64,000 nt of DNA from Boswellia sacra. Its lineage: Eukaryota; Streptophyta; Magnoliopsida; Sapindales; Burseraceae. The notes under the pieces are model-generated. The model searched no databases and was not told the DNA's origin. It saw only the letters and a list, made by a program, of their open reading frames with translations. The stretch is taken from NCBI GenBank assembly GCA_013180625.2, contig SNVD02016092.1:1054001-1118000 (forward strand), in the 5' to 3' direction. The position numbers and the translations under genes are program-made. Below, piece after piece: positions 17,460-43,617 of the stretch. Numbering within the stretch: position 1 is the stretch's first letter; every line of letters begins with the position of its first letter.

Positions 17460-18301
17460 GTGCTAGGTCCAGTCTATGTGTGGGCTTTTTTAGCTAAGTC
17501 TCTGAGCAATTCTATGGCTTCCTCGGGGTCTTTTTGAAAGAACTCCCAATTACATATCATCTTAACAAATTGGCGCTCCCTAATTGCGACTTCCTCATAG
17601 AAGTAACTAACCAAGCGCCAATTTTCATACCCATGATGAGGATACATGTTTAGCAACTCTTTAAATCTCTCCCAAGTTTGGTACGATGTTTCACTATCTT
17701 TTTGGGAGAAATAGGAAATCTTTCTTTTTAGGCCATTAGTCTTATATTATAGGAAATACTAGTTGAAAAACACTTGGGTCATTTCTGCCCAAGTTCCAAT
17801 GGATCTCGGCTTTAAAGAGTAAAGCCAACTCTTTGCTTTGTCGTTTAGAGAGAAAGGGAAAAATTTTAACCTAATAGAATCTATGGCATTGGCCTGACTA
17901 TGAAAGGTGTTCACTACTTCTTCAAATTCCCTAACATGCACATAAGGGTTTTCACTATCTAAACCATAGAAAGTTGGTAAAAGATGTATCATCCTAAGGT
18001 GAATGTCCAACTTTGGTGTGTTGGGTGGAAATATGATACATGATGGTGTGGCTGTGTGGATAGGATGCAAGTAATCTTTTAGAGTATTAATAGGGTCGTC
18101 CTCATGTTGGCTCATTATATCAGAATTAAAAGATGAAGATGAACTAAGAATTGGATTTTCTTCAGTTGCAAAATCTTGTTGTGGTTCTAATTCTAATTTC
18201 TTCATAAATCTCCTTTGTTTGTCTCTAGATTGCTTTATACATCCGCGTAATTTGTCTCCCTTTTTTCTTTTTTTACACAAGAAAGTTCTCAAATAAAGCA
18301 A
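17460..18301 (-). pseudogene. Athila-like gag of element F
   Basis: The minus strand from 18301 encodes a polar N-terminus with a Ser run, then 'SCIIFPPNTPKLDIHLRMI', 'FYGLDSENPYVHVREFEE', 'IRLKFFPFSLNDKAKSWL' and 'RSIGTWAEMTQVFF'. That is the retrotransposon gag capsid fold (PF03732 type). A frameshift near 17750 moves the reading frame, and the domain continues at 17656-17474 with 'YPHHGYENWRLVSYFYE' and 'EAIELLRDLAKKA'. It aligns block for block with the gag of the LOG-bearing element (31465 on), for example 'LKLFPFSLKDKAKTWL' there. The C-terminal zinc knuckle is missing because the sequence ends at about 17430. Confidence 0.85.
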
Positions 18302-28640: not shown

Positions 28641-29675
28641 TAAATTGATGCCAAAGAAGCTAAAGCATCAGCCATCTGGTTCTTGTTTCTAGGAAGATGG
28701 GCGAAGGTAGACTACTTGAACCTCCCAATCAATCTTCTAATGTGCTCGAGGTATTGTTTGAGTCTTCCTTATCTTAGATCCCAATCTTCATTGGCTTGAG
28801 AGATGACTTGCTTCGAATCTCCAAACACTTCTATTTCATCAATACCCATTACAGCCATGATTTCTATCCCAAATGCAAAGGCTTCCTATTCAACCATGTT
28901 ATTGGTGACTCTAAACTCTAACTTCTTAGCGAAGGGAATGACTTGTTCAGTTAGTGATACTAGAATAACTCCTATTCTAGTATCGTTTTTATTTATAGCT
29001 TCATCAAAGAGCATCCTCCATCCTACTATTAAGATTGCCACCAAATGTTCATTTGGGAAATCCAACTCTCATGGTTCATCATCAGCGATCGGATTCATGG
29101 CCAAGAATTATGCAACCACTCTTCCTTTCACTACCTTCTTGGTGATGTATTTAATTTCAAATTTTGGACTAGCTCCCTCTCTAGCTTTCCCATCAAGGAC
29201 GATGCTTCATAAAGATCTCCTTCGAGATAGCCTTAATCTTATAAGATTCAAAGTAGTGCCTTGACTTCTTTGAGAGCCATGCCATGGCTAATCATATGTT
29301 CTCCATATAACTATATTTTATCTCGTATGGCGGCAACTTCTCGCTAAGACAATAGATGGCATGTTCTACACCATTCTTGTCTTCTGTGCTAGCATAGCAC
29401 CAATGGCCTCCTCTTCAAGAGCCAAGTAGAGAATCAAATTCTTGCTAGACTTAGGCAGTCTCAAGATAGGTAGATTCTACAAGTACTTCTTAATCTTCTC
29501 AAATGCCTCTTGCCACTAATCGTTTCACTCCACTGGCTGATCATTCTTTAGAAGTTTGAAGATCGGCACATAAACTGTTGTCAAATTGGTATGATATATT
29601 AGATCTTCCCAAGAAACCCTCAAACTTCTTTTTTGGTCTTGGGTGATGGCATATCTGTAATCACCTTAACCTTGT
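28641..29675 (-). pseudogene. RNase H domains, copy B, including the archaeal-type RNase H
   Basis: On the minus strand about 29550-29250 encodes remnants of the first RNase H/tether ('LSKKLPPYEIKY' type words in broken frames). About 29000-28680 encodes the second, archaeal-like RNase H: a 'VILVSLTEQVIPFAKKLEF' block with 'RVTNNM', then 'VFGDSKQVISQ' (catalytic Asp) and 'LPRNKNQMADALASLA' (final Asp). The second RNase H is the hallmark of the Tat lineage of plant Ty3/gypsy elements. The LOG-bearing element interrupts pol at 29676-29680, between RT and RNase H. Confidence 0.78.
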
Positions 29676-29680
29676 CTAGA

Positions 29681-31207
29681 TGATGAACACTTAAAAATGC
29701 ATGTTTAATAAGATTTTAGTTCATCATATTGCATTAATAGTGTCAATAAATTCCTCAACTTAAGCATATTTGTAGCATTTGCATCTTTGGAATTAATTTC
29801 TCTTAATTTTGGTTTCGTTACAGGTTCGGTAAAATGGGCATAACTCTCTATTTATAGATCATAATAGTGCAATTCTTAATGTTTTGGAAAGCTGATTTAA
29901 TTGTCTACAAGATTGCATTTCACAAGAATCATCAAATTCGGGCTCTTAGTGGACAAAAATTGGGCTTGAAGTGAACCCATCTACAGTCTCGGCCCAGTCT
30001 GACCAGGCCTCAGTATTTGGACCGTATCTATCAAAATACGTATCCAAATTGTACAAATCAATATGTTCTAGAAAGCTGAGAGAAATATCTATAACTTTCA
30101 TGAAGACATGTGATTAAAATTCTCAACATTTCAATGTCAAAATTGATGGTCAAAGTCGGTGCCTAATTATCTCAATTGTCAAAGATATTTACAACTAATA
30201 TTTGACAATTATGCCCTTGTAATTTGACAAGTTTGCCCCTGGATGTATCTATAAATAGAGGTGCTTGTGACCCATTAGGGCATCTTGGCCTTGGCTGGAA
30301 CATTTTGGCTTTGGCTAGGATCTTGTATTGTGTTTTGCGTGTTCATGTTATTAAAGAATTTCCTTTTTCTTACATTTTATTTTCTTTCTATTATAATGTT
30401 CTTCTAATTTCTCTTTTGCTAAGGTGAAAGGGTGAAACCCTTGATATGAGAATAAGGATTCTCTAACCCTTAATATGTGCTTAATAATCTTAATCTTATA
30501 ATGTTTATTTAATATGATTTATATTTAATTTCTTAATCAATCTTGACACCACTCGTAAAGTGGAGGTCTTGATCCATTGTCGACAATCCTTGGCACATCA
30601 AATGCTTGGATCCTTTCTAGATGATGTATGGTTCTTCCTTACCGACACGAATCTAGTTAGAACCTTGATTTGTTGTAGACATATGATGATTGGCACATTG
30701 GATGCTTGAACCCATTTACAAGAAGTGGTATAAATATTGGTAATGAAACAAATATAATTCATATAACTAAAATGGGTTAATTATCCTTATTTGAAATATC
30801 AAGGGCGGATCCTCTAACCTTAGCCTTCATTGTTATTGTGTCAATTCCTCTTGTATTTTAATTATTCTATTGTTTATGAACTTTTTATTTTATTTACTAT
30901 GGTAGGTTCTACCACCTTATGAAATTGTTCTTTAATTTACTATGGTTGGTTATACCACCTATTTCCATGGATGGTTTTACCTCCTCTTGCTTTTTGTTTT
31001 ATATTTGAATGATCGGTAATACCACCTACCATCTTACATACTTGTTGATATTATCATGTCACCTCTTTGAATCATCCATATCACATTTGTTTAGCTTATA
31101 ATTTGTAACGCTTAAATTCCTTTCCTCGTGGATCGACCCCGGTCTCACCGGGTTTTATTACTTCGACACTCCTATACTTGGGAGACAATCCTTTTTCGGA
31201 TGTGTCA
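29681..31207 (+). mobile_element. 5' LTR of the LOG-bearing element
   Basis: It begins TGATGAACAC and ends GGATGTGTCA. TATAAATA (30250-30257) is the evident core promoter. Direct repeats of 'ACTATGG(T)GGT...ACC' words occur at 30897-31020. Confidence 0.96.
30250..30257 (+). promoter_or_regulatory. TATA box of 5' LTR
   Basis: CTATAAATAGAGG is an optimal plant TATA context. It is repeated in the 3' LTR at 36935-36942. Confidence 0.8.
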
Positions 31208-31213
31208 AGTTTT

Positions 31214-31231
31214 TGGCGCCGTTGCCGGGGA
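31214..31231 (+). other. Primer binding site, tRNA-Asp type
   Basis: TGGCGCCGTTGCCGGGGA, an exact 18-base complement to the plant tRNA-Asp 3' end used by Athila and some related elements. It starts six bases after the LTR. Confidence 0.93.
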
Positions 31232-31464
31232 AGGTAAAATTTGGCGTACAAAATTGTAAGTATTTTCTTTTCCCATTTCTATTTTATTTTTCTTGTATAC
31301 GTTCATCTCTTTTCTCCCCATTTCTATTTTTATTTTTTCTTGCATGTGTTCATCTTTTCTTTCTCTTTGCATTAATTGGTAGAATTGTTCATAGCCACTC
31401 ATCTTGTCTAAAAAAAAAAAAAAAAAAAAATAAAAATCATGCTCATGCCCAACTAAGAACATTA

Positions 31465-33336
31465 ATGGACTCCATAAATCTTAGGAGAACTTGTGCACAA
31501 TCATGCATAGTCTTCCCTCATGATGCATTATACTTCGACCATGAATCGAATTTCATTCAATTCTTACCCCACTTTCATGGCCTAGATGTTGAAAACCCAT
31601 TTTTGCACTTGAGAGAATTTGAAGAGTTTTGTAACGCTTATAGTGACCTAAATTATAGCATAAATATCTTGAGATTAAAGCTTTTTCCTTTTTCTCTAAA
31701 AGATAAAGCTAAGACATGGCTACAAAATCTTAGGTCAAGATCCATTAGCTCATGGGATGAAATGCAACAACAATTTCTTGAAGAATTCTTTCCTCCCTAT
31801 AGAACAAATTCTCTCAAAAATCAAATCACCAATTTCACTCAAAAACAAGGAGAGACCTTTTACCAATGTTGGGATAGGTATAAAGCATTGCTTAATACTT
31901 GTCCTCATCATGGTTTGGAAACATGGGAACTAGTTTTAATTTTCTATGAAGGTCTTACACATCAAGCTAGGCAAATGATAGAATTATTGTGTGATGGACA
32001 ATTTGAAGATAAATACCCAGATGAAGCCATGGATTTCCTAGACTTACTAGCGAAAAATGCCCAAAATTGGAAAAATGTTGACACTTATGAGGTGCCAAGA
32101 ACATCTAGTAGAGGCATTTATAACTTTAGGGAGAATCGTGATCTTCATGCTAAATTTACATCCCTAGCTAGAAAAGTCGAGGATTTAGAAATGTGGTCTA
32201 TGCAAAAAATTGTTTGTCACACTTGTAATTCTAGTGATCATCCAACGGATGATTGCCCAAAGGTCCCTACCTTTAGAAAAAGTCTCCATGACCAAACCAA
32301 TGTTTTAAACACTTTCCAAATGTCAAATCCTAATCCTTACTCACAAAATTTTGGATGGAAAAATCACTTGAATTTTGATTGGAGGAATGATAATCATGCA
32401 CAATCTTACCAACCTCCCTCTCAGTCATATCAAAATTTTCAAAAATCTCATGATCATGCATCCTATAAAGATCTTAGAGAAACATTGGATTCATTCATTG
32501 CAAAGCAAGAGGCTTTTAATAGTCAAGTTGCTCAAACTATGGCAAACTTGAATGATGCTCTTGAAATGCTTGCATTTGCACTTAATACTCATGAGAAAGA
32601 AGAGTTTCCATCTCAACTAGAGCCAAACTCCATCAATCCACATGTGAGTAATCCAAGGGGCCAACATCTAGATGAAGGTTCGGTAAGTACTCTTCACGAA
32701 GGTAAGGTTGATAAAGAACATATTTTTAACCCCTATGAGAAAGATGATGAATCAATCTTAAAGGGTAAGGAAGAGGTTAATAAAACTACACCTAACAAGG
32801 AAGTGATCAAATCCTCATTTATGCCCTCATGTCATCATGCAAAGGAACACAACCAAAATTTTGACAATAATGAATTTTTCAAGCATGACGAATGTGAGGA
32901 AGCTAATAAGATTAACATGGAAAACTATATCCAAAATGAGAATTTTTCAAGTCCTTCAGAAATTGGGTTAACTAGTTCATTTGAAGCAAATATGCAACTA
33001 GTGCCCATTGCTTCTAAAGAATTTTCATTGCTTGATTTTGTACAGGTGAAAGAGATTAAGAGTTGGGAGCCATGTTTTGAACAAAGGCAAGAAGAAACAT
33101 CCACACTCAAGAATGCATGCCTCAAGGACAAACAAATTCAACTAGTGGTAATCTCTTCCATTCTTACAAATAAAGGAAAAAGAAAGGTACCACCTCAATG
33201 GCATATTTTTTACCGTGGTAAATTACTTTCGAAGAGATTCCTTTTTTTGGCTTTTTTTTACGATTGTTCAAATTTCATCCATCGGTGCCATATGTTTATT
33301 TTTGTTTTTGTTCTTGATTTTTTCTATCATTTCTAG
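31465..33336 (+). CDS. gag: Gag polyprotein of the LOG-bearing element
   Basis: 623 residues from ATG at 31465. The frame is open further upstream, but only across the PBS and leader, so this ATG is preferred. Residues about 20-60 hold 'CIVFPHDALYFDHESNF' and 'FHGLDVENPFLHLREFEEF'. The capsid domain (PF03732 type) continues with 'LKLFPFSLKDKAKTWL', 'SISSWDEMQQQFLEEFF' and 'GLTHQARQMIELL'. A CX2CX4HX4C zinc knuckle spans residues 251-264 and would bind packaged RNA. After that comes a polar, poorly conserved tail. The last 60 residues are hydrophobic and aromatic. No protease motif follows. The complete frame agrees with a young element. It is related to the decayed gag of element F (17460-18301). 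Confidence 0.9.
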   Translation: MDSINLRRTCAQSCIVFPHDALYFDHESNFIQFLPHFHGLDVENPFLHLREFEEFCNAYSDLNYSINILRLKLFPFSLKDKAKTWLQNLRSRSISSWDEMQQQFLEEFFPPYRTNSLKNQITNFTQKQGETFYQCWDRYKALLNTCPHHGLETWELVLIFYEGLTHQARQMIELLCDGQFEDKYPDEAMDFLDLLAKNAQNWKNVDTYEVPRTSSRGIYNFRENRDLHAKFTSLARKVEDLEMWSMQKIVCHTCNSSDHPTDDCPKVPTFRKSLHDQTNVLNTFQMSNPNPYSQNFGWKNHLNFDWRNDNHAQSYQPPSQSYQNFQKSHDHASYKDLRETLDSFIAKQEAFNSQVAQTMANLNDALEMLAFALNTHEKEEFPSQLEPNSINPHVSNPRGQHLDEGSVSTLHEGKVDKEHIFNPYEKDDESILKGKEEVNKTTPNKEVIKSSFMPSCHHAKEHNQNFDNNEFFKHDECEEANKINMENYIQNENFSSPSEIGLTSSFEANMQLVPIASKEFSLLDFVQVKEIKSWEPCFEQRQEETSTLKNACLKDKQIQLVVISSILTNKGKRKVPPQWHIFYRGKLLSKRFLFLAFFYDCSNFIHRCHMFIFVFVLDFFYHF

Positions 33337-33506
33337 TTTGTTTTTATTTTATTTTGTTTGTGTTTATTTTAGTTGTGTGTTTTTTTTATTTTGTTTCCCG
33401 GTCAAGTGGCGGATACAGTACTCCATAGCTTTTAAAGTCAGTTTTTCAGTTCCCTAAAAACTGTTGCTTGCATCCATTTTCTTTTCTTCTCTCTCATTTT
33501 CTTCAC
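33337..33506 (+). other. Short T-rich spacer between gag and the unknown ORF
   Basis: Pyrimidine-rich sequence with no motif I can name. A possible acceptor-like TTTCAG occurs at about 33445-33450. Confidence 0.4.
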
Positions 33507-34055
33507 ATGGATACCATTCTCTCAAAATTGCACAAACATTTTCCCTCTCTTCCTCAAAATGATTTGCTTAAAATTTATAAAGCTTGTGCAGAAAGACTAA
33601 GGTTGTTGATGCGTAAGGGTATTCCTGCTGATTTAAGATGGTTAATTGAAGCCAAGGTTCGATTCTCTTGTGAGTTTTCAGATAATCTTGTTTCCCATAT
33701 GCCAGGTTTGGGAAAAAGCTCTTATGCCAAAAAGCGAAGAGCGAAAAGGTTACAAGTTTGTCCCAGATGTGCAAGATGGACTTGTAACCAGCGTTGCCGC
33801 TCCTTGGGATATTTGTCTAACAATCGAGAGGATAAACTACAGTTCATCAAGAATGGACTGAGTAAGGAGTCTTTGGATGATATCCGAACGACTCTTGAGA
33901 CGCATTCTTGTGGACTTGTGCAGCGTGAAATTTTTAATTTGTGGACACAATTTCGAGATGAGCAGGAACGCTATAGTCTTGGGAATCTGACTCAAAACGA
34001 CCCTGTTTGCCAGTTTATAAGAAAACTGGATGGGAAGCATATCCCCAACTCATAG
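33507..34055 (+). CDS. Unrecognised ORF (182 aa) between gag and LOG
   Basis: ATG at 33507 is chosen over an in-frame ATG at 33468 because it begins MDTILSKLHKHFPSL, a plausible amphipathic N-terminus; both are possible. I do not recognise the family. Visible features are a basic, helix-prone N-terminal half ('YKACAERLRLLMRKGI', 'LRWLIEAKVRF'), then a very basic 'KKRRAKR' and a compact cysteine cluster CX2CX4CX3C in 'CPRCARWTCNQRC'. A charged C-terminal half ends in 'QFIRKLDGK'. Pol domains are absent. It is uninterrupted, as are gag and LOG beside it. It could be a second captured host gene, a nucleic-acid-binding accessory protein of this element lineage, or an exon once linked to another gene. 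Confidence 0.65.
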   Translation: MDTILSKLHKHFPSLPQNDLLKIYKACAERLRLLMRKGIPADLRWLIEAKVRFSCEFSDNLVSHMPGLGKSSYAKKRRAKRLQVCPRCARWTCNQRCRSLGYLSNNREDKLQFIKNGLSKESLDDIRTTLETHSCGLVQREIFNLWTQFRDEQERYSLGNLTQNDPVCQFIRKLDGKHIPNS

Positions 34056-34371
34056 AAGGTGTTTAAGCCGTTTCTGGACGTAAAACCAGAGGAAGATGTG
34101 AGCCACAGTCACAACTACCTGTACATATGCATGCGTGCCATCATTTTTGAATTTTAATACCTCATAGCTGTCATTTTTGAATTTGTATCTTTTGTTTGAC
34201 TTATGGTGTCTTATTTCATCATCTTTTGACCTTTTTTTGCATTATTGTCAACTTTTTCAACAAACAATCGAGCTACCTAGATAGATATCATCATTAACAT
34301 ACCTTTTTGCACTCCATAAATACCACATGTCTTGTTCTCTTCTTCACACATAGTTAGAGAGTCACATAGAC
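34056..34371 (+). promoter_or_regulatory. Region upstream of LOG with TATA-like element
   Basis: It contains CATAAATA (34315-34322), 50 bases before the LOG ATG, followed by a C/T-rich leader. This spacing suits a plant core promoter with a short 5' UTR, so LOG may have kept part of its own promoter. Near 34145-34190 a 'CATTTTTGAATTT' word is duplicated. Function is inferred only. Confidence 0.4.
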
Positions 34372-35022
34372 ATGGAGGGAACTTCAAAACATCGAATCCA
34401 AAGGATATGTGTATTTTGTGGATCTCGACCAGGTAAAAGTGAAGAGTTCGTAGAAGTAGCGAATTATCTTGGTAGGCTACTGGCTGAAAGAAAGATTCAT
34501 GTGGTTTATGGGGGAGGTAGCCTCGGGTTAATGGGTTGTGTGTCAACAGCTGCACATGTAGGAGGTACTCAAGTTTTAGGAGTTATTCCTAAAGCTTTGG
34601 CTGTAGAAAGCATTGTTGGAAAAACGGTTGGGAAGGAGTTACAGGTCTCCTCTATGCATGAACGCATGGCACATATGCTCATCAATTCAGATGCCTTTAT
34701 TGCTTTACCAGGTGGCTTTGGCACTCTTGAAGAAATTTTTCAAATTGCCTCTTGGGCCCAACTGAATCTCCATCAAAAACCCATAGGTTTGTTGAATGTC
34801 AAAAATTTCTTTGATCCTTTGATAAGTTTTGTTGATGCAGCTGTGGAACAGAATTTTATCCCTCATTCAGCGAGAAAGATCCTTATTTCTGCCACTTCTG
34901 CTGGTGAGCTACTTGACAAATTACAAGAAGTTGAGTATGAACCTGACCCAGCTAGTACTCAAATTAATTGGGCAGGAGGGCAAAACAAAAAGTGCAAATT
35001 GGATCTGAATCTCCGTTTGTAA
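34372..35022 (+). CDS. LOG: LOG-type cytokinin riboside 5'-monophosphate phosphoribohydrolase, captured by retrotransposon
   Basis: 216 residues, the normal length for plant LONELY GUY proteins, which release active cytokinin bases from nucleotide precursors in one step in cytosol and nucleus. Residues 11-17 'RICVFCG' and 45-54 'VYGGGSLGLM' form the Rossmann-type nucleotide-binding start. Arg98 in 'MHERMAHM' and Glu121 in 'PGGFGTLEE' (113-121) are the family's catalytic signature. The usual Lys after Arg98 is Met99. 'WAQLNLHQKPIGLLNV' (128-143) is also typical. The C-terminus 'KLDLNLRL' fits an LxLxL (EAR-like) pattern not usual in LOGs. Plant LOG genes normally contain several introns; this one has none, which points to capture from spliced RNA. 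The frame is intact, on the element's sense strand, between unknown ORF and 3' LTR. Activity cannot be judged from sequence alone. Confidence 0.95.
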   Translation: MEGTSKHRIQRICVFCGSRPGKSEEFVEVANYLGRLLAERKIHVVYGGGSLGLMGCVSTAAHVGGTQVLGVIPKALAVESIVGKTVGKELQVSSMHERMAHMLINSDAFIALPGGFGTLEEIFQIASWAQLNLHQKPIGLLNVKNFFDPLISFVDAAVEQNFIPHSARKILISATSAGELLDKLQEVEYEPDPASTQINWAGGQNKKCKLDLNLRL

Positions 35023-36353
35023 TTTTTTTTCTTGTCCTTTATTTTATTTTATTTTATTTTTAGCATGTTATTTTATGAGTCTTTCAGGTCATCTCTCTTG
35101 AATAACAGAAGCTTCAGGTAATGTCTCCTATACTTTATCTCTCTACATTTAAACATTGAGGACAATGTTTCATTTGGTTGGGGGGGAAGGATAGTAGACA
35201 TAAGTGTGTCTTGAAATTTTATTTTTTCTTGCAAAAAAAAAAAAAAGCGAGTTAGTAATTAGATTCAGAGTGCGGTGTAAGGAGTTCAAATCCTCTTGAG
35301 ACGCATTCTGGGTCAGGAATGGCAGAGTAGGGAGGACCAGTTTGAACTCTTGAAACCCATTCTAACCAATTTGTCATTTTATTCTTGCATTTTTGAAGAC
35401 TTATTTGATATTATTTAGTCTTGATTTTTGAATTTTATAACAAGGAGGTCTTATTCATTTCACTTTGAATCATTCAAATCTATGAACTCTCACAACCTTG
35501 TCATTTAATAAATTGTGTGCTTATGTGCTCATTAAGCAAGTATCTATGAATCTTTCTTCACACACACACATACCTTGATGTATGATTGTGGGTGGCGAAA
35601 TGAAATATTGCAATATTTGAGTTCTTTTGTTTTGTTTAGGAAAACAACAAAAGGAAGGGGAAAGTTAAAAAAAAAATGAAAAAATGAAAAAAATGAAAAA
35701 TGAAAGAAAAAAAAAGAAAAAAGAGAGAAAGCAATGGTGGATAAGTTTGGTCTTGTAGCCTCCTTAATTCGAGCAATTAAGCCGAGGGGTGCCTCAACAC
35801 CTAATACCCTAAGACCAACTGGTTTGGGAGCTATTGGCCCAAAGCTCGCTACATGGATTAATGAGAAAGCTTAATGGGATTGAACATTGCACTATCCACA
35901 AGTTTCTAAGCAAAAATAAAGCATCGGCAACCCGAGTCGTTAAGCTCGTAGGGGTGTCTTAACACCTAATGCCCTAAGGCCAACTGGTCTGGGAGTCATT
36001 AGCCTAAGGCTCGCTACATGGGTTAAAGATGCATTCTTTCAAAAAAAAAAAAAAGAAAAAAATGTATAAAATGAATGAATATCCCCTACCTAAGGTTGTT
36101 AGCCTTAACAAATACTAGAACCGATATGGCTTATTTCTAATAAGCCCCATAGTCATGTGTCAACTGAGCACAAAAGAAGGTGTGTGGATATCTTGACTGA
36201 AGGGTACATGAGTCATTTAAAAAAAAAATCAGTTGAGAGTTTGTTTATTTGGATAAAATCAAGGAGAGTGCAATAATGACCACCTTGGATGTAAAATTCT
36301 ATAAATCACTTCTAAATAATAACGCTTTAATTGCTAGGGACTAGCAATAAGCT
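35023..36353 (+). other. 3' untranslated internal region of the LOG-bearing element
   Basis: It holds TTTTA repeats after the LOG stop, then 'ACATTGAGGACAATGTTTCA' with a G-run (35150-35190), a sequence typical of the region after pol in Athila-like elements. A/GAAA tracts follow, then two imperfect copies of a roughly 190-base block with 'CACCTAATRCCCTAAGRCCAACTGG' halves (35745-35880 and 35930-36030). No further ORF of note. Confidence 0.75.
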
Positions 36354-36365
36354 AGTTGGGGGGTG
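36354..36365 (+). other. Polypurine-type tract before 3' LTR
   Basis: A short purine-rich TTGGGGGGTG stretch directly before TGATGAAC. Another G-run at 35180-35190 could be a second PPT. Confidence 0.65.
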
Positions 36366-37893
36366 TGATGAACACTTAAATATGCATGTTTAATAAGAGT
36401 TTAGTTCATCATATTGCATTAATAGTGTCATTAAATTCCTTAACTTAAGCATATTTGTAGCATTTGCATCTTTGGAATTAATTTCTCTTAATTTTGGTTT
36501 CGTTACAGGTTCGGTAAAATGGGCATAACACTCTATTTATAGATCATAATGGTGCAATTATTAATGTTTTGGAAAGCTGATTTAATTGTCTACAAGATTG
36601 CATTTCACAAGAATCATCAAATTCGGGCTCTTAGTGGACCAAAATTGGGCTTGAAGTGAACCCATCTACAGTCTCGGCCCAGTCTGACCAGGCCTCAGTA
36701 TTTGGACCGTATCTCTCAAAATACGTATCCAAATTGTACAAATCAATATGTTCTAGAAAGCTGAGAGAAATATCTATAACTTTCATGAAGACATATGATT
36801 AAAATTCTCAGCATTTCAATGTCAAAATTGATGGTCAAAGTCGGTGCCTAATTATCTCAATTGTCAAAGATATTTACAACTAATATTTGACAATTATGCC
36901 CTTGTAATTTGACAAGTTTGCCCCTGGATGTATCTATAAATAGAGGTGCCTTGTGACCCATTGGGCATCTTGGCCTTGGCTGGAACATTTTGGCTTTGGC
37001 TAGGATCTTGTATTGTGTTTTGTGTGTTTATGTTATTAATGAATTTCCTTTTTCTTGCATTTTATTTTCTTTCTATTATAATGTTCTTCTAATTTCTCTT
37101 TTGCTAAGGTGAAAGGGTGAAACCCTTGATATGAGAATAAGGATTCTCTAATCCTTAATATGTGCTTAATAATCTTAATCTTATAATGTTTATTCAATAT
37201 GATTTATATTTAATTTCTTAATCAATCTTGACACCACTCGTAAAGTGGAGGTCTTGATCCATTGTCGACAATCCTTGGCACATCAAATGCTTGGATCCTT
37301 TCTAGATGATGTATGGTTCTTCCTTACCGACACGAATCTAGTTAGGAACCTTGATTTGTTGTAGACATATGGTGATTGGCACATTGGATGCTTGAACCCA
37401 TTTACAAGAAGTGGTATAAATATTGGTAATGAAACAAATATAATTCATATAACTAAAATGGGTTAATTATCCTTATTTGAAATATCAAGGGCGGATCCCC
37501 TAACCTTAGCCTTCATTGTTATTGTGTCAATTCCTCTTGTATTTTAATTATTCTATTGTTTATGAACTTTTTATTTTATTTACTATGGCAGGTTCTACCA
37601 CCTTATGAAATTGTTCTTTAATTTACTATGGTTGGTTATACCACCTATTTCCATGGATGGTTTTACCTCCTCTTGCTTTTTGTTTTATATTTGAATGGTC
37701 GGTAATACCACCTACCATCTTACATACTTGTTGATATTATCATGTCACCTCTTTGAATCATCCATATCACATTTGTTTAGCTTATAATTTGTAACGCTTA
37801 AATTCCCTTCCTCGTGGATCGACCCCGGTCTCACCGGGTTTTATTACTTCGACACTCCTATACTTGGGAGACAATCCTTTTTCGGATGTGTCA
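36366..37893 (+). mobile_element. 3' LTR of the LOG-bearing element
   Basis: 1,528 bases, TGATGAACAC...GATGTGTCA, near-identical to 29681-31207. TATAAATA is at 36935-36942. It is followed by the CTAGA duplication and then pol of copy B. Confidence 0.96.
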
Positions 37894-38560
37894 CTAGACT
37901 ACTTTTATAACCTTCTTACCAACTATAAACCTAGTAGCTTCCCTAAGGTGACTCTAAAAGCGCACTTCTTCAGATTCAGTTGTAGCTTATACTTCTTCAC
38001 CCCTTTTAGGAACCGATTTAGAGCTTCAAAATGGCCATCTCGAGTTTTGGTTTTCACCATCATGTTATCTATATAAACTTTTATCTCTTTATGTATCACT
38101 TCATGAAATAGTGTCATCACCATTCGTTGGTAGGTCGCCTCTAAACTCTTCAACCTGAAAGGCATCACATTGTAATAGTAGGTTCCCCACTCCATAATGA
38201 AGGCCATTTTCATATTGTTTTTATTGGCCATCATTATCAAATTGTAATCAGAAAATCCATCTACAAATGAGAACATCACACTGGCGATAACGTTGTCTAC
38301 TAATACATCAGTATGAGGCAAAGGAAAGTCATCATTCGATGAGACCTTGCTCAAGTCTTGATAATCAACACTTATTTGATCCTTTCATCCTTCTTTGGAA
38401 CTGGCACGATGTTGGCTAACCATTTCGAATACTTCACGACTTCTAGAAACTTAGCATCAATCTACTTGGAAACTTCTTCCTTGATTTTCTAAGCCCATTT
38501 TGGTCTCAACTTCCTTAACTTCTCTACGGATATGTTGAAATCGTGTGCTCAGCAGTATTT
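37894..38560 (-). pseudogene. Reverse transcriptase, copy B
   Basis: The minus strand from 38560 has broken RT entry blocks. From 38354 it is open: 'SNDDFPLPHTDVLVDN', 'VMFSFVDGFSDYNLI' (first catalytic Asp block), 'YYYNVMPFRLKSLEATYQR' and 'VIHKEIKVYIDNMMVKTKT'. The catalytic box reads YIDN where YVDD is expected. It continues with 'GHFEALNRFLKGVKKYKL' and 'NLKKCAF'. At 37898 it meets the LOG-bearing element; the tether continues at 29675. Several upstream stops and the altered box mean no active enzyme. Confidence 0.9.
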
Positions 38561-39118: not shown

Positions 39119-39930
39119 CCTTCATAGGCTCAAAGTCTCCTCATCTTCTTCGGACATATAACCCAACCCTCTTTTAGAAGTTTGGCCTTTAAAATCTAGA
39201 AGAGATGGCAAACCACTTCCATTCTTCCCAAGCCCAATTCCTAGCAAGTATCCTTGTTTCTTTATTATTCTAGCTACAATTGGGCTGACTTCATCTATCA
39301 TGGCTATATGGAAGCCTCCCACGTAAGGTATCTCTCCAGCCTTCACACTTAAAGCAACAAGTGTAATGGTGGAGACAACATGAATGGTCATAATCTTCCC
39401 ATCTATATTGAATCAGATCTTCTGATACGAAGTATAAGGAACTTCACCAAGCAGATGGAGCCATGCCCTGCCTAATAAAGCAGCAAACGTAACTGAATGT
39501 CAAGGACTATAAACTAAGTCATCACTTCAGTAGGTCAAGTCTTCACTAACACCTTGAAATCCCAATAGCACTTCTTTTCGAGTCATCATAGTCCTTGATC
39601 ACCATCTCACAAGGCTCAAGTTCATCTTCACTAACTCCATACTTGTGCAATATCTTCCTAGGCACAATATTGATGGCAGATCAATCATTCAGCATGATAC
39701 AAGGAGACGTCTTTCCACTAATAGTTGTAGTGATAAATAGTGGCTCGTTGTATATTCTTCCTTGAAAAGCTAAATCATCATCAATTAAGGTGATCACACC
39801 CTTCTCATTCACCCCATTGGGTTCCCTTTCGATCACAGTAGTCAACATCTCATTTTGAATGGTAGCCATTGATATCTCCACCTCTGCTAAAGCTTCACCG
39901 TGGCTTGTCTATACTTTTGGGAAGAGATCA
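39119..39930 (-). pseudogene. Aspartic protease and G-patch segment, copy B
   Basis: The minus strand at 39881-39480 contains a retropepsin-like segment: 'FITTTISGKTSPCIMLND' leads to the active-site position, where the expected D-x-G-S-A is N-D-stop-S-A, followed by 'INIVPRKILHKYG'. From 39391 to 39122 there is a G-patch-like block: 'IIKKQGYLLGIGLGKN' and 'KRGLGYMSEEDE'. Protease followed by G-patch before RT is characteristic of Tat/Ogre-type elements. The stop in the active site (TGA for GGA or similar) inactivates it. Confidence 0.8.
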
Positions 39931-41699: not shown

Positions 41700-43617
41700 C
41701 TGTTGACCCAGGTATGGCAACCGAAGAGGGGGGGTGAATTGGGTTTTTATTTATAAAAACGGACTTAGAAAACTTTTCTTCAAAGATCAAAATTATTTAA
41801 ATCCTTCTTTGAGAACAAAGGTGAAGAAGATGAAATAGAATACAATCAAGAGAATGGCAATAAAGAACAATCACAAGTGCAAGTAAATGTAAAGAGATAG
41901 GGATAGAGAGAGTGCAAACTCAATTTACGTGGTTCGGCAAACCTTGCCTACGTCCACGGGCTCCTAGCTCCACGAGCTAAGTTTTCCACTAAGTTGTAGA
42001 AATCTTTACAACTTGCTTGATGAACAACCTCACCAAGACTTTTTCCTTCAACTCTTGATAACACCACACCAAGAGTTCTTCTTGATGAACAACCTCACCA
42101 AGGCAACTTCCTTCAACTCTTGATAACACCACACCAAGAGTTCTTCTTGATGAACAACCTCACCAAGGCAACTTCTTCAACCCTTGATAACACCACACCA
42201 AGAGTTCTTCTTGATGAACAACCTCACCAAGGCAACTTCCTTTAACCCTTGATAACACCACACCAAGAGTTCTTCTTGATGAACAACCTCACCAAGGAAA
42301 CTTCCTTCAACTCTTGATAACACACAACAAGAATTCTTCTTGATGAACAACCTCACCAAGGAAACTTCCTTCAACTCTTGATAACACACAACAAGAGTTC
42401 TCTCAAGGATAACTATTATCCTTTACAAGAATATCTCACTCTCACCACAATACAAGAACAAAGATAATTTTTACAACAAAAGTATAACTCTCTTCAAAGA
42501 GTAGATAAAGAATATAAAAGCTCTCTAGACTTGATATTTCTCTTTTTTTTTTTTTGCTTGATAGATACCTCTCTTGCTCTTCTTGAATGCATGGGAGAAG
42601 GGCTTCTTTTATAGGCAAATGAGATGAACTTAATCAAATGAAGACACCAACTCCAAATTTTCTGCCCACCATAAAAACCGTAATCTTCTCTGCCATTTTT
42701 GCCAATTTTTCGTTTGAAATTTGAAAATATGTAAAAAATAAAAGATCTGTACAATTGAATAAGCTTTGCAACGCATCATGAACCAAGTAATTTGGATATC
42801 TGTAGCTCAAGATATGGCCAAAACACCATTCGGTGCTCATGTAACTTGATTTTTCTTTCTTGTATCAGTCCACCGACTTACATGTGTATTATGTTGGCCT
42901 TATGTTTGAAATTTGAATTTATTCAAAGAATATGAAATCTTCTCCATTGAATCATCTTTCCAATGCCACAAGAATCAAGTCATTTAGATTTCTCTAACTC
43001 AAGATATGGATAAAAAATCATTTGGTGCTCAAATGAGTTGATTTTTCTTCTATGTGTCAGTCCACCAAATTGCATGTCAATTATGTCAGCCTTGCATTTG
43101 AAGTTTGAATTTATTCAAAACATATGAAATGTGCTTCATTAAGTCCTCTTTCTAATTCCACAAGAATCAAGTCATTTTGATTTTGCTAGCTCAAGATATG
43201 TCCAAAAGAGTATTTGGTGCTCATGTTAGCTACTTCCATTTGTCTTTCAACTTGCATAATGATTTGGACAACTTTGCACTTGAAATTTGAATTTCTTTAA
43301 AATATATGAAATTTTATAAATTGAGTAATCTTTCCAAAGGCTTAAGAATCACATCATTTGGACATCTATAGAGATATATATGACCAATTGATTGAACATT
43401 GCTCATGTGTCACATTCCTTGAGTCAAACATTGTTCTTAAACTTTGGTGCCTTTAACATGTAGTCTTCTCCTTAGCTTCAACACTTGAGCCTTTTCTTGA
43501 TTTTACAATTGTTTCAATGATATTAATCTTGCACATAAATAAACATGTTAGTAAATCACAATGAATCAATGTGTATTATTATTATCAAAATTATCATGTA
43601 GCCTTAGGGCTAACACA
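41700..43617. mobile_element. 1.9-kb insertion of uncertain class with 7-bp flanking duplication
   Basis: ATGCTCT occurs at 41693-41699 and 43618-43624, exactly bounding a block that begins CTGTTGACCCAGG and ends GGGCTAACACA. It contains 'GGGGGGGTGAATTGGGTTTT' and 'TTACGTGGTTCGGCAAACC...CTACGTCCACGGG', words common in dispersed plant repeats. It also has a minisatellite (42016-42400) and three or four diverged copies of a roughly 180-base unit with 'AAGAATCAAGTCATTT' and 'GCTCAAGATATG' (42770-43400). No long ORF. TG..CA-like ends suggest a solo LTR, but a 7-bp duplication is unusual for one. Confidence 0.6.
42016..42400. repeat. Minisatellite, about 64-bp unit, six copies
   Basis: Units run 'CTTGATGAACAACCTCACCA' through 'CCTTCAACTCTTGATAACAC' to 'AAGAGTTCTT'. 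The last two copies share variants (GGAAACT, CACACAACAAGA), showing stepwise expansion. The minus-strand ORF over it is an artefact. Confidence 0.95.

Follow-up and report, generated by a model that had tools for sequence, protein, structure and literature searches.

Did the intact LOG gene found inside an LTR retrotransposon of Boswellia sacra reach its place by an accident confined to one copy, or does it belong to a lineage of elements that carry it? The question arises from a 64-kb window (the whole stretch of DNA that was analyzed), for which a sequence-only reading had described an intronless LOG gene on the sense strand of a young element. The explanation we favor, with a probability of about 0.6, is that this element is young, has lost pol and belongs to an old Ty3/gypsy-type family of angiosperms. 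In this family, the space from integrase to the 3' LTR would house accessory genes: one for a betaflexivirus-type nucleic-acid-binding protein (NABP) to begin with and, in some members, an intronless LOG gene as well. Judged by sequence comparison, the relatives with one or both genes in other plants look like traces of an old mobile cassette and not of a one-off accident.

Structure and age of the element

One complete LTR element occupies positions 29676-37898 including its target site duplications (TSD), or 29681-37893 from LTR to LTR, and we have next to no doubt about its anatomy. The 5-mer CTAGA lies on both flanks, at 29676..29680 and 37894..37898. The LTRs, at 29681..31207 and 36366..37893 (both +), measure 1527 and 1528 bp, start with TG, end with CA and are 98.4% identical; TATAAATA occurs in the 5' LTR at 30250 and 30729. 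Adjoining this LTR at 31214..31231 (+) is the PBS-like sequence TGGCGCCGTTGCCGGGGA, presumably a primer binding site of the tRNA-Asp type, and the G-rich polypurine tract TTGGGGGGTG stands immediately 5' of the 3' LTR at 36356..36365 (+). Near-identical TG..CA LTRs, the target site duplication, the primer binding site and the polypurine tract together mark an LTR retrotransposon. The LTRs differ by 16 transitions and 15 transversions over 1527 sites, a K2P distance of 0.0206, which at 1.3e-8 and 4e-9 substitutions per site per year corresponds to an insertion age of about 0.8 or 2.6 million years, respectively.

Within the element, gag, NABP and LOG form a row of three intact sense ORFs, all on the + strand. 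The description of one young, TSD-bounded element with LOG in sense orientation therefore holds. LOG does lie between the primer binding site and the 3' LTR, as had been claimed, but the virus-type gene at 33507-34055 had been overlooked, and the element consists of gag, NABP and LOG without pol. It sits inside an antisense gypsy-type pol, splitting an RT-like part (37926-38384, including 38055-38345, -; RVT_1, 3.6e-10) from an RNase H-like part (29381-29673, -; tblastn).

The LOG gene

The LOG frame at 34372-35022 (+) is open for 216 codons without introns, and Arg98 and the motif PGGFGTLEE at residues 113-121 are present exactly where the sequence-only reading had placed them. The protein matches the profiles Pfam Lysine_decarbox (4e-39) and TIGR00730 (2.5e-50); against the equivalog model NF058542 it scores 112.8 bits, short of the curated 300. 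Its best solved relative is Arabidopsis At2g37210 (2a33; E 2.3e-62), and the predicted model (mean pLDDT 85.8) superimposes on 2a33 chain B with an E-value of 1e-22, a TM-score of 0.95 by target and 0.77 by query, and an rmsd of 1.2. The profile, the catalytic Arg with PGGxGTxxE, and the fold, as judged from the sequence and the predicted model, are those of the plant LOG family, and the product is a putative cytokinin riboside 5'-monophosphate phosphoribohydrolase.

A protein search scored 7998 candidates, of which 7955 matched at E 0.001 and the best 120 were listed. By E-value the list is headed by two Xanthoceras models with a double LOG (54-55% identity), and identity among the listed relatives reaches 71%. 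Intact proteins of 216-217 aa among the listed matches come from Reevesia, Diplodiscus, Pterospermum and Populus, and further LOG proteins from Melia and Parasponia. By alignment count, Arg98 is kept in 114/120 listed relatives, Glu121 in 116/120 and both in 110/120; a loosely defined text search for the stretch around Arg98 hit just 68/120. P.G.GT.EE is kept in 101/120, and its loss in the other 19 would be expected of decaying copies. The largest 90%-identity cluster among the listed matches is that of Pterospermum P0120, with 327 member sequences. In a tree of 73 rows built by a quick method (70/120 listed matches picked by hand, the window and two Arabidopsis rows), the window groups with P0004 and P0007 with a support of 89 and is not part of any small set with strong support. 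The alignment took in 43/120 listed matches.

In a neutral simulation of the LOG frame that counts substitutions only, 32/500 runs (6.4%) kept zero stops, by which constraint on LOG is weakly supported, too weakly for a claim of selection. The window protein ends in LDLNLRL (34999-35019), and an LxLxL C-terminus is found in 96/120 listed relatives; in form this end resembles an EAR repression motif. The sequence CATAAATA at 34315, 57 bp upstream of the start codon, is a weak candidate for a TATA box and hence for a promoter of LOG's own.

The virus-type neighbor of LOG

Upstream of LOG, in the env position, an ORF of 182 aa at 33507..34055 (+) is predicted to encode a carlavirus-type Cys-rich nucleic-acid-binding protein. 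It matches Viral_NABP (1.6e-7) and Carla_C4 (1.3e-6), both above the curated Pfam cut-offs, over residues 34-120, and thus has the profile of the betaflexivirus Cys-rich nucleic-acid-binding proteins. Among 41 aligned relatives, 40 match Carla_C4 and 38 match Viral_NABP (Pfam, E<=0.01), and the Cys pattern searched for was without a match in 13/108 relatives. We assume that p12 of chrysanthemum virus B belongs to the same Pfam family as the window protein.

The predicted NABP model is poor (pLDDT 60.2), and a fold search with it among viral models gave 0/43 matches at E<=0.001. Ranks 1-8, none of them significant, are all betaflexivirus proteins, the family having been checked for ranks 1 and 8 and being presumed for ranks 2-7. 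Seven of these eight are named RNA-silencing suppressor or nucleic-acid-binding protein; their TM-scores are 0.13-0.19 by query, and the viral models are 77-144 aa long.

The protein search with NABP scored 364 candidates, 339 of them at E<=0.001, and the best 120 were listed. The listed matches include proteins of Populus, Xanthoceras, Acer, Rhamnella and the asterid Orobanche, and their largest 90%-identity cluster, that of P0151, holds 566 member sequences. Cluster sizes of up to 327 for LOG and 566 for NABP, which count sequences and not proven genomic copies, point to many copies elsewhere. An NABP tree of 110 rows, among them 107/120 listed matches after removal of rows of unusual length, places the window in no small set with strong support; the alignment took in 40/120 listed matches. 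Three scans of a viral contig collection, with NABP, the NABP alignment and LOG, returned no relative.

Comparison of the window NABP with that of a stray plant contig (L001, described below) gave 39, 27 and 67 differences at codon positions 1, 2 and 3, so that third positions change most. The corresponding dN is 0.192 and dS 0.873, a dN/dS of 0.22 (Nei-Gojobori; one pair, no interval). NABP looks constrained by this pairwise estimate, and we think it very probable that it has a conserved function.

Absence of pol and presumed dependence on relatives

The gag ORF at 31465..33336 (+) is intact, encodes 623 aa and matches Pfam Retrotrans_gag at 7.2e-21. Residues 4-474 are 52.5% identical to the Citrus sinensis gene model P0248, and residues 456-588 match P0248 674-819 at 33% identity. 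The ORF thus aligns with P0248 over residues 1-483 and again over 674-819, which leaves it without the protease region, and its end is, as far as the alignment indicates, gag joined to a remnant of later polyprotein sequence. On the other side, window positions 33333-34128, which include the leader 5' of NABP (33337..33506, +), align with positions 1597-2420 of L001. Position 1597 falls just past the end of the L001 integrase ORF, and so the region from RT to integrase is missing as well, at the left edge of the leader.

Seven stop-to-stop ORFs of at least 85 aa lie wholly within the element, and none gave a Pfam match to protease, RT, RNase H or integrase. Likewise, when seven pol or gag-pol sequences were run against 33229-36365 (tblastn, E<=0.001), NABP alone was recovered, and no RT, RNase H or integrase. 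Since everything from protease through integrase, the enzymes of an autonomous element, is missing, the window copy is non-autonomous. The element may resemble the Athila or Tat/Retand lineage of Ty3/gypsy.

Limits of the LOG segment

The order of genes in a relative that has pol sequence is given by L001, a 3.3-kb plant contig (DAIEQH010000041.1) deposited within a Candidatus Nomurabacteria MAG, where it is contamination by a plant retrotransposon fragment. It was the one relative among 81 pattern matches in one scan of genome contigs. L001 has RNase H-like sequence (2-253), then an integrase ORF, then an intact NABP, no LOG, and finally a stretch resembling window positions 35113-35190; RT and RNase H ahead of integrase is the order that marks Ty3/gypsy elements, and pol is absent from the window copy. 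The NABP call in L001 rests on Viral_NABP (3.3e-8), Carla_C4 being below its Pfam cut-off. The part of the window at 34129..34371 (+), which begins the LOG-bearing segment and contains CATAAATA, has no counterpart in L001. The right boundary of the segment is the conserved stretch 3' of the cargo at 35113..35190 (+; CATTGAGGACAATG ... GGGGGG), which is 75.6% identical to L001 2534-2613. Because L001 has both NABP and this stretch without LOG, either LOG was added between 34129 and 35112 or it was lost in L001.

No direct repeat of at least 10 nt has one copy on each side of LOG within 34040-35300, which speaks against a separate nested insertion. We reject a separate insertion of LOG into the element on this ground and because the same neighbors occur in other plants. 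A LINE-type retrocopy is rejected too: there is no poly(A) directly 3' of LOG, and the A-run near 35235 is located past the conserved stretch at 35113-35190. RNA-mediated capture, which had been proposed for LOG, agrees with the lack of introns and does not have a poly(A) tail directly 3' of the gene in its favor. A chance nested fragment or a chimeric assembly is unlikely; LOG is in sense orientation, has no duplication of its own, and is joined to gag or NABP in proteins of other plants.

The same genes together in other plants

BLASTP of the window gag, NABP and LOG against 361 relative proteins found five that match two of the three genes and none that matches all three. Gag and NABP are joined in Citrus sinensis P0248, which also has RNase H and a weak protease match and whose NABP is 58.9% identical to that of the window (E 3e-45), and in the JGI protein P0267, which also has an integrase zinc-binding domain. 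Gag and LOG are joined in P0287 of Acer negundo (gag E 5e-88) and in P0296 of Acer yangbiense. NABP and LOG are joined in P0213 of Rhamnella rubrinervis (NABP E 4e-76), which has no NABP Pfam match at E<=0.01 and whose link rests on BLASTP. Carla_C4 and protease in P0248 and gag in P0287 are below the Pfam cut-offs, and the links of NABP in P0248 and of gag in P0287 likewise come from BLASTP. In P0189, a further Rhamnella protein, NABP is fused to a part that resembles the end of integrase; residues 1-111 of P0189 are 70% identical to the L001 integrase ORF. The structure of the joined gene models may reflect annotation artefacts, but each still sets the genes side by side. The LOG relative P0006 and the NABP relative P0124 are both on contigs of 8723 nt, which as a sign of linkage is suggestive only, given that equal sizes are bound to occur by chance among short contigs.

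Relation to known elements

The claim that no standard retrotransposon family carries LOG does not stand. The publications cited here by PMC number are represented by excerpts, to which our statements about them refer. A LOG-type "YgdH" domain has been reported for consensus Ty3/gypsy elements of Citrus and, when the filter was relaxed, of Populus (PMC9289625), which itself cites an earlier report of such a domain (Steinbauerova 2011). LOG in plant gypsy elements is thus already published and not new. The YgdH elements resemble ours in having a LOG-family domain inside a plant Ty3/gypsy element, and Citrus P0248 shares gag (52.5%) and NABP (58.9%) with it. Unlike ours, they are described in the excerpts of PMC9289625 with no virus-type gene beside LOG and no pol-less LOG copies; a count of carla, NABP and silencing suppressor in its text gave 0 for each. 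Orchid Ty3/gypsy elements carry an m6A RNA demethylase (PMC9289625), like LOG a host-type enzyme encoded by an extra ORF in a gypsy element. It differs in being another enzyme whose activity has been demonstrated, whereas LOG here is known from sequence and a model.

The position of the cargo has parallels as well. Plant LTR retrotransposons with additional ORFs (aORFs) between pol and the 3' LTR share the position and sense orientation seen here; those described in the excerpts are env-like or antisense and include no virus silencing suppressor and no LOG (PMC7264820, PMC11963269). The nearest precedent for viral-type cargo in the literature surveyed is the RNA-virus SF1 helicase taken up by insect retrotransposons, which has weak silencing-suppressor activity (PMC6338049). 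In both cases a retroelement carries an RNA-virus-type gene that possibly damps silencing, but the host kingdom and the viral gene differ, and no hormone gene is mentioned in the excerpts of PMC6338049. In the carlavirus chrysanthemum virus B, p12 acts as a silencing suppressor in the cytoplasm and as a transcription activator in the nucleus (PMC7588395). The betaflexivirus Cys-rich proteins, like the window NABP, belong to the Carla_C4 and Viral_NABP families; the window protein differs from them in its length of 182 aa, against 77-144 aa for the viral fold matches at ranks 1-8, and in lying inside a retroelement. Our search of the open-access literature found no report of a virus-type silencing-suppressor gene in a plant LTR retrotransposon or of an NABP-LOG pairing. 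Of the cargo, it is the virus-type gene adjoining LOG that is most out of the ordinary.

Possible roles of the cargo and alternative explanations

Under the explanation we favor, an old family with accessory genes, NABP would stem from an RNA virus and have entered the element through a switch of templates in reverse transcription (the direction of transfer is unrooted), and LOG would have followed later, in the same way, from a host mRNA. Both would be expressed from the LTR transcript or from spliced forms of it. NABP might damp RNA silencing of the element or handle its RNA, and LOG might raise active cytokinin locally and keep cells dividing. Dividing meristem cells that reach the germ line could then receive new insertions, and the window copy would move with the help of relatives that retain pol.

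Taken further, these steps suggest a joint strategy, which we put forward tentatively and hold to be clearly less probable than its opposite. A lineage in several rosid orders, its first cargo also in an asterid, would carry a two-gene offence cassette in the env position, with a virus-type silencing suppressor against host RNAi and a cytokinin-activating enzyme for host cell division, and non-autonomous copies would keep the cassette after the loss of pol. If true, a genomic parasite would be following the strategy of pathogens that induce proliferation, and plant genome parasites would be working with viral tools and with those of hormone-making pathogens. The element provides a direct way to test for silencing suppression by a borrowed viral gene and for a hormone change toward the germ line. 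In addition, many LOG-like gene models in some tree genomes may be transposon genes and not an expanded hormone gene family.

A doubtful, though serious, alternative is that only NABP is a functional accessory gene, in silencing suppression or RNA handling, and that LOG is a later hitch-hiker in some families. L001 would fit this, as it lacks LOG and keeps an intact NABP directly after integrase; the dN/dS was measured for NABP alone; and the lack of an Orobanche protein among the best 120 of 7955 LOG matches agrees weakly. Yet several plants and large clusters contain LOG frames 216-217 aa long, and 110/120 listed relatives keep both Arg98 and Glu121.

It is unlikely that both genes are mere passengers that the element picked up by chance and multiplied along with itself, of no use to it now and intact through the youth of the copy. 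At an LTR divergence of about 2% an unused ORF could still be open, 6.4% of simulated frames remained stop-free even over the longer LOG branch, and 19/120 listed LOG relatives have a damaged motif. What such passengers would not lead one to expect is an NABP whose comparison with L001 gives a dN/dS of 0.22 at a dS of 0.87 and the most changes at third codon positions. Nor would one expect full-length frames of NABP or LOG to recur in Populus, Xanthoceras, Acer and Rhamnella, those of NABP also in Orobanche, and those of LOG in Malvaceae such as Reevesia.

We give little credence to a cargo that benefits the host or is undergoing domestication, whether through virus resistance by a suppressor-like protein or as an extra cytokinin gene; such a role has been proposed for the virus helicases of insect retrotransposons (PMC6338049), but here the genes lie in a recent TSD-bounded insertion, and elsewhere in large clusters, and not at a single conserved host locus. 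Equally improbable is a convergence of short basic Cys-rich stretches in place of homology between NABP and the betaflexivirus proteins, which would suit the limited Pfam span (residues 34-120 of 182), the lack of a fold match at E 0.001 and the low TM-scores, and is countered by the two Pfam models above their cut-offs, the 40/41 and 38/41 matching relatives (E<=0.01) and the betaflexivirus proteins in the top 8 of 43 fold-search rows.

Other features of the window

The window has a GC content of 36%, as AT-rich plant DNA, and a 65-bp tandem repeat in six copies at 42016-42401. Near the antisense RT fragment, a G-patch domain match (2.6e-5) lies at 39125-39412 (-); G-patch has been reported as an additional domain in plant gypsy elements (PMC9289625). 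No second LOG or NABP match was found anywhere in the 64 kb, and a second gag relative, 48% identical, is present at 17477-18055 (-). Two matches to Rfam snoR71 (RF00097) exceed the gathering score, one at 31810-31916 (-), antisense within the gag ORF of the element, and one at 17628-17734 (+), antisense within another gag-like stretch. The snoR71 family may partly describe retrotransposon gag.
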